64,000 nucleotides of DNA from assembly GCA_035559815.1 (NCBI GenBank), contig DATMAT010000020.1:1-64000 (forward strand), written 5' to 3'. Positions 3,368-8,192 of the stretch are shown here, in pieces. Origin of the DNA: Thermodesulfobacteriota bacterium. GTDB taxonomy: Bacteria > Desulfobacterota_D > UBA1144 > Nemesobacterales > CSP1-2. The position numbers were made by a program, and so were the translations under genes. Below the pieces are notes generated by a model, which saw only the letters and a program-made list of their open reading frames with translations, was not told the origin of the DNA and did not search any database. Every line of letters starts with the position of its first letter. Within the stretch, counting starts at the first letter, position 1.

Positions 3368-4987
3368 TTACTTCCTGATTTTCCATTCGCTTTTAGTCTC
3401 TGTATGTGTTTTGTCTGTGAAAGCGATATTGTCGTGATAAGCAAGATGACGGTCTTTTTTAATTGTACTTACCCTTTTTACTATGCGCCGTTTCTCTTTT
3501 TTGGGCTGGATTTTCAGGTTATCTTCTAGGGTTTCCACCCCCTCGATATTTATGGCGATATCCTTTATTACTTTGCTCTCATCTTGGTTGGACAGTGTCC
3601 CACTCAATATGGCTTTTCGGTTAATGACGGTTACCTCTATGTTCTTATACCCTTTATCATCTAATTCCTTTCTGATCCCGGAAGCGATTTTTTGGTCGCT
3701 TATTATTTCCTCCACCACTATGCCGTTTTCAACTTGCTTTATCCCCGGGACATTTTCTGCAATGTTCTGGATGGCTTGGCGGTCTTCCTGGGTGGTGACT
3801 TTCCCGCTCACCACGGCTTTTCCGTCCGTAACGGTTACTTTTATATCTCTATGGCCTTTTTTCCACAGCTCGGTTTCGATATTGGATTTAACACTGGAAT
3901 CGGTGGGAGGAAATAGGATCTGGTCCATCAGCGTTTTAAGGGTGAACCGGCCGTTGAGGTGATTAGCTTTACCGTATTCAACTTTCTGGATAAGCTGGGT
4001 TTGAGCACTATCACCCACGGCGGAAGCTTTGCTTCTTAATACAGCTTTGCCCTTTATAACGCTTAGTTTAATATCCTCATAACCCTGCTCCCATAGTTTA
4101 CCCAGGTTGGTTTCGATATCGGATTTAATCTTTGAAGTAGTTATGGGAGATATAAGCTCCCTTATGAATCTGGCAAGCTCCGCTCTCCCGTCGAAGTAAT
4201 TGGAACCGATGTATGTAAATCCGGATATCAGGAGAAGAAGCACAACTACCCGGTTAACTTCTCTGGAAAAAGAGGATAAAATTCTTCTCTTCCATGTGGC
4301 CGGATGACTGAGCTGCCTGTACGGCAAACTGAGGAGTTTCCAATTCTCTTCATACCTTTTTTCATGGAGGTTTATTTCTCTACCGGGTATTTCCCTTTCT
4401 TCTTGAAGATGTTTCTTTGTGCTGCCCGCCTCCGTGCGAGGCTGAGTGATTTCCTCTGATTCTTCTCGAATCGGTGTTGATGCTTCTACGGATGACCGGT
4501 TCTCCCTCCCAATCTGTTTTTTCCTTTCGTTACTTCTACCGTAAGCCGATTCGGTGAGCTCTACGATATCAGGGACATATAGAATGGGCAGGGCTTCCGG
4601 AATTTCGTTCTTCCTATTGTTCTGGGTGTTTTTGTCATGGGTTTCCTTTATAGCCCTTATCAGTTCTGAGGAACTCGTTTCCCTGCCTATGTAGAGAATA
4701 TTCGGCAACACCGGCTCTTCTTCGATGTTCTTTCCTAAAACAATGACCCTTACATCGAGGCCATTTTTGCCGGTTAAATTAAGGAGTTCATGGATATCCA
4801 GGCTTAGTGTCCTATTGTCAAGGAGTAGAAGCCTGGGCTTTAAGGAGATAAGATGCTTTTCCATCTCCTCGCGATTTAAAGCCTCGGCTACTATTTTTAT
4901 ACCCTTTTCATTCCCCAGAATCTTCCGTATTCCTTCAAGGAAGAACCTTGAGTTTGAAGCTAGTAGTGTTCGGACGGGTTGATTCAT
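3368..4987 (-). CDS. Degenerate receiver domain fused to membrane segment and BON domains
   Basis: The order in this 539-residue protein is: a CheY/NarL-like fold at residues 1-115; a charged low-complexity linker to about 235; one transmembrane helix near 243-262 (VVVLLLLISGFTYIGS); then three BON-like repeats to about 505 and a basic tail. In the receiver part Asp57 (LLLLDN) is kept, but the acidic pair is replaced (LLASNS at 8-13) and the conserved lysine position reads IGRE. Phosphotransfer is therefore doubtful. BON domains bind membranes or peptidoglycan-associated partners and normally face the periplasm, so the predicted topology is cytoplasmic receiver in, BON out. The gene is convergent with the pentahaem gene. 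The architecture is unusual, and function is not predictable beyond an envelope-linked sensor or adaptor. Confidence 0.75.
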   Translation of the reverse strand: MNQPVRTLLASNSRFFLEGIRKILGNEKGIKIVAEALNREEMEKHLISLKPRLLLLDNRTLSLDIHELLNLTGKNGLDVRVIVLGKNIEEEPVLPNILYIGRETSSSELIRAIKETHDKNTQNNRKNEIPEALPILYVPDIVELTESAYGRSNERKKQIGRENRSSVEASTPIREESEEITQPRTEAGSTKKHLQEEREIPGREINLHEKRYEENWKLLSLPYRQLSHPATWKRRILSSFSREVNRVVVLLLLISGFTYIGSNYFDGRAELARFIRELISPITTSKIKSDIETNLGKLWEQGYEDIKLSVIKGKAVLRSKASAVGDSAQTQLIQKVEYGKANHLNGRFTLKTLMDQILFPPTDSSVKSNIETELWKKGHRDIKVTVTDGKAVVSGKVTTQEDRQAIQNIAENVPGIKQVENGIVVEEIISDQKIASGIRKELDDKGYKNIEVTVINRKAILSGTLSNQDESKVIKDIAINIEGVETLEDNLKIQPKKEKRRIVKRVSTIKKDRHLAYHDNIAFTDKTHTETKSEWKIRK

Positions 4988-5311: not shown

Positions 5312-6190
5312 TCAAGACCTGGGAATGGTTATCGAGGACAGGAATTGATAGTTTATATCCTCTTCTTCTATTGCCTTATCCACGTTCAGGGAGTTTTGAA
5401 ATTCCATGCCCGTGGGCAGGGGCAGCTTGAAGTTAATCCCTCCGCCGAATTTTATCAGCTCGGCGCTGTTATTGAATGAATTACATTTCTCGTAGCCATT
5501 GTTGAACTGAAGGTGGAAATTTCTGGAGGGACCATAATTAAGACCAAACTCGGCAAAATGTCGATTTTCGTCGGCTTTTGCTTCTTTATAAATTAATCCT
5601 CCCTTCATCCAGGTTTCTATATCATCCCAGATTTTTCTTATCTCTGTGGTCAGAGTTTTTGTGTAGAAATCTCCGTCGTTAAATTCCATTCCTGTAACTA
5701 CTGAGGCGAAGCTGAGAGGGCTAATCGACAACCTGAATAGACCGTGGCTTATCTTATTATCGGTGTCCGCCCACTGTCTATCTACGTTCGTGCTGAGAGA
5801 AACAAACCTCCACGGTTGATAGTCGAGGTTAAAGAACAAGCCCTGGCTCTCTTCTAGTAATGTGGGAACCCTCCTCCGGTATGCGGCACCCGCCCTGAAG
5901 TCTTTGGTCTTAACGGAGGAGCCTATTCGAAGTGAGTAATCTTCTATCTCCGAGTCTATGTTTTCTGGTATTACACTCTCAAAATTACCCTGAATATTAA
6001 GTGCCTGCGAGATAGTGAACTTGTTCTCTACGGCTAAGGATTTTGGGGTCAGTAGGTCTCCCGGCTTGGATGGCCTTAAATTCCTCGTTTTTATGCTCAG
6101 GCTTTGAGAGAAGAAACTACCATTATTCTTACTGGATAAATTATGACTATAGGCTAGGGGACGTAGTGGGTAGACGACCTTTGGTATCAT
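5312..6190 (-). CDS. Probable outer-membrane beta-barrel protein; true start upstream of this ATG
   Basis: The 292 residues from the first in-frame ATG alternate short polar and aromatic strands (FVSLSTNVDRQW, FHLQFNNGYEK, GGGINFKLPL), as expected for an outer-membrane barrel with a C-terminal strand. I do not recognise a family. The same frame stays open upstream to 6352 and encodes a clear signal peptide (about 6272-6320: FYVFIIFFILLLSYRLL, then A-S-A before AEPEV). The ATG at 6190 would remove it, so the natural start is upstream. No ATG, GTG or TTG exists there: the candidates are CTG at 6340 or a codon after GGGAGG at 6333-6338. Either a rare start codon or an indel near the 5' end must be invoked. 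Confidence 0.6.
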   Translation of the reverse strand: MIPKVVYPLRPLAYSHNLSSKNNGSFFSQSLSIKTRNLRPSKPGDLLTPKSLAVENKFTISQALNIQGNFESVIPENIDSEIEDYSLRIGSSVKTKDFRAGAAYRRRVPTLLEESQGLFFNLDYQPWRFVSLSTNVDRQWADTDNKISHGLFRLSISPLSFASVVTGMEFNDGDFYTKTLTTEIRKIWDDIETWMKGGLIYKEAKADENRHFAEFGLNYGPSRNFHLQFNNGYEKCNSFNNSAELIKFGGGINFKLPLPTGMEFQNSLNVDKAIEEEDINYQFLSSITIPRS

Positions 6191-6636: not shown

Positions 6637-6714
6637 TGGCGTCCCCGACGGGATTTGAACCCGTGTTACCGCCTTGAAAGGGCGGTGTCCTAGGCCGAGC
6701 TAGACGACGGGGAC
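6637..6714 (-). tRNA. tRNA-Glu (TTC), CCA encoded
   Basis: The minus strand folds as a full cloverleaf: acceptor GTCCCCG/CGGGGAC, anticodon stem CCGCC/GGCGG around loop CTTTCAA (anticodon TTC), T-arm CGGGTTCAAATCCCG, and discriminator G followed by encoded CCA at 6639-6637. It lies downstream of tRNA-Lys on the same strand, and the two are probably co-transcribed from the promoter at 6886-6914. Confidence 0.96.
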
Positions 6715-6796
6715 ACTGATTTGCAGATTGGCGATTGCGGATTTCGGATTTAAAAAAATTTTTTCAGAAATCATAAATCCGAATTCCAAAATAAAA

Positions 6797-6870
6797 TGAG
6801 CCGTGCAGGACTCGAACCTGCGACCCTCTGCTTAAAAGGCAGATGCTCTACCAGCCTGAGCTAACGGCTC
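6797..6870 (-). tRNA. tRNA-Lys (TTT), no encoded CCA
   Basis: The cloverleaf is clear on the minus strand: acceptor GAGCCGT/ACGGCTC, D-arm with GCTCAGGCTGGTAGAGC, anticodon stem TCTGC/GCAGA with loop CTTTTAA (anticodon TTT), T-arm GCAGGTTCGAGTCCTGC, and discriminator A. CCA is not encoded, unlike the neighbouring tRNA-Glu. The 82 bp between the two tRNAs contains an imperfect inverted repeat of the type AAATCCGAA. Confidence 0.96.
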
Positions 6871-6998: not shown

Positions 6999-8192
6999 AT
7001 GATTTCCGGACTGGACAAGACTCAGACTAAAAATTTTACGTTAATAACCATCGCCAATTTTTTCTTTTTCTGTAATTTTTCTTCCTTCTTTCTTCTCCCG
7101 TTATTCATAAAGAGCCTTGGAGGGAACGAAGCAAACATCGGTTTTATCATGGGCTCTTTTGGCATCACTTCCCTTGGCTCGATTCCGCTCGTATCGTTTC
7201 TCATCGATAAATACGGAAGGCGGAGATTCATGCTCTTCGGCGCCTTGGTCATGTATCTATCTTCGCTCGGTTATCTCCTGATCACCGAGCTAAGCTACGT
7301 TTTCTATCTATTGAGGTTACTTCAAGGAGTAGGGTTCGCCTTCTTTTTCACCTCTTCCGGCACCGCTGCCGCCGATTTTGTCCCGGAAGCAAGGAGAGGG
7401 CAGGGGCTCGGCCTGTTCGGGGCGTTTACTATTGCATCTTATGCCCTGGGGCCGACTGTTGGAGAGGGTGTGATAGAGTATCTCGGGTTTCGCTCCTTCT
7501 TTATATATGCCTCGTCATTCAGCCTGATTGCCATTATACTGGTCTATCCTACCAGGGACGCCGATTTTAAGCAGTCCAAGGACCGTTACGGCCTTGGTTT
7601 TTTCCGCCTGGCTTTTTCCAGAAAGTTTGCCATACCGCTTCTTACAAACCTCATTCTGGCCGGTGGATTCGGGTCCATATTGAATTTTGTGTCTGCTTTT
7701 CTCAAGCCCAAAGGATTGGATGTCTTTTATTTCTTTATTACCTATACGGTAACGATTGCCGCAATCAGGGTTTTCGGAGGAGGGATTTCGGACGTGTTTG
7801 GAAGGAAAAAAGTGGCCTCTCCAAGCCTCCTTTGTTTCTCCCTATCCCTAGTGGCTATGATCTTCATAAATTCGGTTTACGAGACGGTGTTAATATCTTT
7901 CCTCTTCAGCATCAGCTATGGGATGCTCTATCCGACTTTAAGTGCCCTGGTTATAGACAAGGCCGGTCCAGACGAAAGAGGTAAGGTTATGGGGGCTTTC
8001 AACGCCAGCTTCAGCATCGGAACAAACATTCTTACATTCGGCTTTGGAGTTATTGCCAAGAATTTCGGGTTTGATGGCATGTATCTAACCTCCGCCAGTT
8101 TTGTGTTCATCGGCTTTTTGATTTTTACCATCTTTGAAACTGAACAAGGTTTTCACACGCTTAGCCACAAAGACACTAAGATACAAAGTTAG
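6999..8192 (+). CDS. MFS transporter
   Basis: This 397-residue major facilitator has about twelve membrane segments. The loop 2-3 signature is present (FLIDKYGRRRFMLFG, near residues 63-77), with the matching half-repeat GISDVFGRKKV in the second half. It would move a small solute across the inner membrane by proton coupling; the substrate is not predictable. Motif and length resemble multidrug or sugar-efflux MFS proteins. The last ten or so residues (LSHKDTKIQS) are encoded by one arm of a dispersed inverted repeat, so the native C-terminus was probably replaced. The gene stands alone, divergent from the tRNA pair. Confidence 0.85.
   Translation: MISGLDKTQTKNFTLITIANFFFFCNFSSFFLLPLFIKSLGGNEANIGFIMGSFGITSLGSIPLVSFLIDKYGRRRFMLFGALVMYLSSLGYLLITELSYVFYLLRLLQGVGFAFFFTSSGTAAADFVPEARRGQGLGLFGAFTIASYALGPTVGEGVIEYLGFRSFFIYASSFSLIAIILVYPTRDADFKQSKDRYGLGFFRLAFSRKFAIPLLTNLILAGGFGSILNFVSAFLKPKGLDVFYFFITYTVTIAAIRVFGGGISDVFGRKKVASPSLLCFSLSLVAMIFINSVYETVLISFLFSISYGMLYPTLSALVIDKAGPDERGKVMGAFNASFSIGTNILTFGFGVIAKNFGFDGMYLTSASFVFIGFLIFTIFETEQGFHTLSHKDTKIQS

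Follow-up and report, generated by a model that had tools for sequence, protein, structure and literature searches.

The window analysed here is the whole stretch of 64,000 nucleotides, the minus strand of which carries, at 3368..4987, an uninterrupted frame for a protein of 539 aa (P0001). From its N-terminus, this protein is made up of a pseudo-receiver (residues 1-119; 4631..4987 (-)), a charged linker predicted to be disordered from its composition and pLDDT (residues 120-240; 4268..4630 (-)), a membrane helix located by sequence and AlphaFold (residues 247-265; 4193..4249 (-)), three BON-like repeats, and a C-terminal tail whose sequence is rich in Lys and Arg (residues 496-539; 3371..3502 (-)). 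A sequence-only reading of this DNA had proposed a receiver-linker-helix-BON order within this ORF, and profile and structure searches now back both halves. No operon joins P0001 to a paralogue or a kinase; the same-strand neighbour lies 324 bp upstream of the fusion gene (window 5312-6190 (-), with the frame open upstream to ~6350). The product of this neighbour is beta-rich, begins much like a signal peptide and is possibly a barrel protein of the outer membrane; it matches no Pfam family, and across 58 genomes of the phylum its sole other homologue is encoded in this same genome (G000:C51:78637-79632). Two tRNA genes also lie upstream of the fusion gene (window 6640-6870), marking a possible insertion hot spot.

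The N-terminal domain had been read as a NarL-like receiver, which is supported by NCBIfam, by a family profile and by Foldseek. Residues 3-94 match the NCBIfam NarL model at E=9.6e-6, the match to Pfam Response_reg reaching E=0.022 only, under that model's cut-off, and solved structures of NarL, VraR and CheY-like receivers are recovered at 1e-6 to 1e-5 with a profile built from 14 receivers of the family. AlphaFold models the domain at pLDDT ~80-96 as beta1-alpha1-beta2-alpha2-beta3-alpha3-beta4-(no alpha4)-beta5-alpha5, and Foldseek matches this model to NarL receivers (E=2e-6, target TM-score 0.78), with the KaiA N-domain also among its matches. Asp57 is kept, the acidic pair is replaced by A10-S11-N12-S13, and in the family alignment Arg102 (4682..4684 (-)) stands at the position of the conserved Lys; the kept Asp and the loss of the acidic pair and the Lys are as first described. 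Two further changes had escaped the sequence-only reading, i.e., the loss of the switch Thr (Gly85) and of helix alpha4. Thus, from the residue set of a phosphorylatable receiver (acidic pair, Asp, Thr/Ser, Lys), P0001 retains Asp57 alone. With no acidic pair, no switch Thr in most members and often no Lys, the family is not expected to carry out ordinary phosphotransfer, and the residues present suggest that the P0001 receiver is probably phosphorylation-dead. A pseudo-receiver is a domain recognised as a receiver which is without the residues needed for phosphotransfer (PMC12632262), a definition that covers P0001.

However, the label "degenerate" given earlier to this receiver is misleading, since the site has been remodelled and its new residues are held constant. 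The family alignment places Ser-x-Ser (residues 11-13; 4949..4957 (-)) at the position of the Mg-binding acidic pair and an Asp57-Asn58-Arg59 motif (4811..4819 (-)) after beta3. S11 and S13 are present in 20/20 of the family rows covering that stretch, neither being conserved in sister receivers, while D57 and R59 are found in 21/21 rows and N58 in 19/21; among these five residues, D57 alone is also fixed in sister receivers. The conserved-Lys position varies across the family (K 9, R 5, H 3). The conservation of the altered site residues argues that the pocket was rebuilt rather than left to decay. Relative to sister receivers, the aligned family rows also show a six-residue gap between beta4 and beta5, corresponding to a shortened connection in P0001 (residues 85-96; 4700..4735 (-)), and no beta4-beta5 helix appears in the AlphaFold models of P0001 and of a second fusion described below. 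Alpha4 is therefore predicted to be missing from the family receiver, on the basis of alignment and AlphaFold models rather than a solved structure.

This receiver belongs to a lineage-specific family, which forms a 21-row clade (support 98/96) apart from other receivers of the lineage and against whose profile P0001, itself included in that profile, scores 158 bits. A receiver-profile search of 58 genomes of the phylum showed that the family is expanded both in this genome (~10 copies, ~8 of them soluble) and in another genus belonging to its taxonomic family (seven matches at E<=1e-18), and is single-copy in each of several sister-family genomes; 17 genomes of one other phylum gave no family receiver at E<=1e-15. 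Most complete members are ~200 residues long, with a LuxR-type HTH at the C-terminus, the one soluble member scanned matching GerE at E=1e-19. P0001 gave no HTH family match even at E<=10, and its BON repeats occupy the LuxR/GerE position. Family genes adjoin topA in the sister family and in G001, as does copy C35 of this genome, and this topA-adjacent site is taken as the ancestral locus. No conserved 5' element was seen by eye upstream of family genes, and Rfam gave tRNAs only. Damaged copies, truncated or interrupted, occur at L041 (G000:C64), L049 (G005:C70) and L048 (G005:C104), and a receiver-only copy with a 146 aa frame at L045 (G005:C6), suggesting that the family turns over quickly. 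Two further members, L040 (G000:C46) and L043 (G005:C101), are probable orthologous pseudo-receiver-LuxR genes from two genera and have uvrA-like and GAF-type genes as neighbours.

By sequence, the closest relatives of P0001 are NarL/FixJ regulators and the soluble pseudo-receiver-LuxR paralogues, with which it has the receiver fold in common; the paralogues of the lineage also have the SxS, the DNR and the missing alpha4. P0001 differs from all of these in having no DNA-binding domain and a helix and BON repeats after the receiver. Known pseudo-receivers (CsgD, VpsT, FrzS, the KaiA N-domain and others; PMC12632262) have likewise lost phosphotransfer residues while retaining the receiver fold, whereas P0001 is set apart from them by its SxS/DNR pocket, its alpha4 deletion and its membrane anchor with BON repeats.

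The Glu/Arg-rich linker and single membrane helix recognised in the sequence-only reading are borne out by composition and by one hydrophobic helix at ~247-265. Residues 118-240 hold 19 Glu, 13 Arg and 9 Lys, and residues 128-230 are modelled at pLDDT <50. The N-terminal flank of the helix is basic (6 K/R vs 1 D/E), from which the receiver is expected inside and the BON repeats outside; P0001 is accordingly predicted to be N-in with a periplasmic BON part, and the earlier placement of the receiver in the cytoplasm and the BON modules at the envelope holds as a predicted topology. Response-regulator folds are cytoplasmic, and the sequence of P0001 starts with the receiver, with no signal peptide before it. 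These features, together with the basic N-terminal flank that the helix has in each fusion, which is the positive-inside pattern for N-in, make it very improbable that the topology is inverted, with the BON repeats in the cytoplasm as in the potassium-binding protein Kbp and the receiver outside or also inside. Kbp would lend such an arrangement some support, as repeat 2 matches it weakly and as no signal sequence is discernible in this BON protein (PMC7806268).

The C-terminal half matches Pfam BON (PF04972) with 90.1 bits against a cut-off of 27 (E=1.2e-25). Where three BON-like repeats had been claimed, two are clear and the remaining one is a partly degenerate relative of repeat 2. Repeat 2 (residues 363-426; 3710..3901 (-)) scores 55.7 bits and repeat 3 (residues 430-495; 3503..3700 (-)) 45.4 bits, each against the cut-off of 27, and both are modelled mostly at pLDDT 90-97 (mostly 90-94 and 95-97, respectively). 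Repeat 1 (residues 279-352; 3932..4153 (-)) is recognised by comparison with repeat 2 (23/53 identical, z=15 vs shuffles) and by the model, in which it has low confidence, and its second half is degenerate. Foldseek matches the BON half to structures of OsmY, DolP, CdsD, YscD and BonA, and the YscD periplasmic-domain model PF16693 scores above its cut-off. OsmY, DolP and BonA share the BON repeats and are the best fold matches of this half; however, they are secreted proteins or lipoproteins, whereas the BON repeats of P0001 are predicted to be tethered to the inner membrane and to a cytoplasmic domain. P0001 scores 22.4 against the DolP-like model PRK11023 (cut-off 184), and an N-terminal lipoprotein signal is absent, the sequence having no lipobox. 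Phospholipid binding by DolP uses W127 in alpha1 of BON2 (PMC7806268); no obvious equivalent was seen by eye in P0001, that helix lying outside the aligned part of the available matches, so lipid binding is unsupported at the residue level.

A second gene with the same domain order is found on another contig of this genome (L005:5294-6928 (-), 544 aa, P0002), which rules out an assembly chimera as the source of the fusion. The P0002 gene is flanked by genes for tRNA-Ser and tRNA-Arg (L005:5098-5189 and 7146-7223), again a possible insertion hot spot. The receivers of P0001 and P0002 are 50% identical, the BON repeats of P0002 score 93 bits, the YscD periplasmic-domain model PF21937 matches P0002 above its cut-off, and the AlphaFold model of P0002 has the same folds as that of P0001. 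Both proteins also carry the helix pattern LLL...G..Y.G..Y. The spacing of the BON repeats differs between the two, and their best pairing is of repeat 2 in P0001 with repeat 1 in P0002 (30/72 identical), which favours a fused common ancestor for both. The best receiver tree pairs P0001 with P0002 at a support of 52/0 only and by itself is no proof of this. Broken family members (G000:C64, G005:C70, G005:C104), the degenerate BON repeat 1 and the confinement of the fusion to one genome would all suit a relic, meaning a recent fusion that serves no selected function and comes from a family both expanding and decaying. We regard this as improbable, as the two frames of ~540 aa are intact and keep every module although about half of their receiver residues differ, and as the family-invariant S11, S13, D57 and R59 are all retained in both.

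The fusion is rare among the genomes searched. The search of related genomes called for in the sequence-only reading showed a receiver-BON fusion in 1/58 phylum genomes, namely this one with its two genes, and none in relatives, either among the 58 phylum genomes (receiver search) or among 44 genomes of the order (BON search), where the other BON proteins are stand-alone in frames of 85-173 aa. "Found only here" thus refers to these two sets, the wider searches being weak: two peptide-pattern contig scans outside the phylum gave no match with patterns that fell in poorly conserved stretches, a viral scan gave no match, and a plasmid scan gave BON-side matches only. In a published survey, the twelve main clusters of BON architectures include Forkhead-BON and none with a receiver (PMC7806268), and neither BON nor transmembrane appears in the main text of a 2025 review of bacterial pseudo-receivers (PMC12632262).

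The closest known layout, which the earlier reading did not mention, is the FHA-membrane-BON arrangement of SctD/CdsD. In YscD/EscD, a cytoplasmic domain is followed by a helix and BON repeats (PMC1084347), and the cytoplasmic domain of SctD/YscD/CdsD is an FHA domain. P0001 is similar in its predicted order of a cytoplasmic signalling-type domain, one membrane helix and BON-like periplasmic repeats, and in the profile and fold matches of those repeats. It differs in having a NarL-type pseudo-receiver in place of FHA, as well as long disordered linkers. Membership in the SctD family is rejected: neither Pfam nor Foldseek gave an FHA match in P0001, TIGR02500 scores 19.5 bits against a cut-off of 86, and no FHIPEP export gate was matched in its own genome, where the search is backed by positive controls in 4 genomes. 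The missing FHIPEP indicates that type III secretion and flagellar machines of this sort are absent from the genome. The earlier statement that no standard family is known with this order stands.

The main rival to the reading we prefer is a static scaffold like that of SctD or decameric BonA, in which the BON repeats would form a periplasmic ring or bundle and the pseudo-receiver would be a cytoplasmic docking or dimerisation module that does not signal. The YscD periplasmic-domain models above cut-off in both fusions, the Foldseek matches to CdsD and YscD, and the order described for YscD/EscD all speak for such a scaffold. We consider it possible but on the unlikely side, because an FHIPEP export gate is missing from the genome, a pocket with conserved SxS/DNR residues points to something beyond a spacer, and just two BON repeats are well formed, with spacing that differs between the paralogues.

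Our preferred reading, which we put forward tentatively and at somewhat less than even confidence, is that P0001 is a trans-envelope adaptor whose BON repeats hold or read the envelope and whose pseudo-receiver captures partners, probably its soluble LuxR-type paralogues. A NarL-type pseudo-response-regulator would have gained a membrane helix and BON repeats where its relatives carry a LuxR DNA-binding domain, giving a single-pass inner-membrane adaptor. In the periplasm, the BON repeats and basic tail may bind an envelope component or oligomerise, and in the cytoplasm the pseudo-receiver, not normally phosphorylated, may bind partners through its retained alpha1/alpha5 surface. Since alpha4 is missing and both alpha1 and alpha5 are intact, the contact surface that remains is that of NarL-type dimers. 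The likeliest partners would be this genome's soluble pseudo-receiver-LuxR paralogues, in which that face is retained alongside a DNA-binding domain, and the membrane form could hold or release them according to the envelope state or a periplasmic ligand of the BON repeats. The domain order, the paralogous pair, the family, the loss of phosphorylation residues and the lack of an HTH come from sequence, and the alpha4 loss and N-in topology from models, while envelope binding, the identity of the partners and regulated release are what we infer.

This adaptor model draws on the receiver family with its LuxR-bearing members, the missing HTH, the conserved rebuilt pocket, the alpha4 loss in both fusion models, the basic flank of the helix and the BON structure matches, and further on three points: NarL/FixJ regulators dimerise via alpha1-alpha5 (PMC12632262), the atypical regulator WhiI works through a heterodimer with BldM (PMC12632262), and ~8 soluble paralogues are available. 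The model is weakened by the absence of an operon linking the fusion to a paralogue or kinase, by the lack of an obvious equivalent of DolP W127, and by the fact that most observed pseudo-receiver dimers involve part of alpha4-beta5-alpha5 (PMC12632262), a face that cannot form normally here. The partner might instead be a histidine kinase, docked by the membrane-bound pseudo-receiver as a decoy so that its output is tuned in response to the BON repeats. The NarL-type fold with alpha1 and alpha5 kept is compatible with this, and kinase binding by pseudo-receivers has been discussed as possible (PMC12632262); however, the beta4-beta5 region is remodelled and no kinase gene was recognised beside either fusion among the ORFs read, leaving the kinase decoy rather improbable.

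Signalling of envelope state by the fusion, as suggested in the sequence-only reading, is plausible. A more speculative extension of the adaptor model, which we think unlikely, is a phosphorylation-independent trans-envelope switch, in which the alpha4-less family would control transcription by receiver-receiver pairing and its membrane-BON forms would report envelope state by capturing or releasing soluble members, with no histidine kinase. The family offers a testable case, as a single genome holds several soluble DNA-binding members and two membrane members whose output half may bind the envelope. It would also indicate that the layout of cytoplasmic signalling domain, helix and BON described for the FHA proteins of type III secretion was put together a separate time, starting from the fold of a response regulator.

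Another atypical family of NarL-like proteins, with the motif AC..PLLREG, was also observed (L088 (G000:C5), L089 (G000:C12), L090, L091, L092 and L050). It too has lost the acidic pair, but both the Asp and the length of alpha4 are retained. The sister-family gene has dprA and ugd as neighbours and is close to topA and to the gene for the family receiver.
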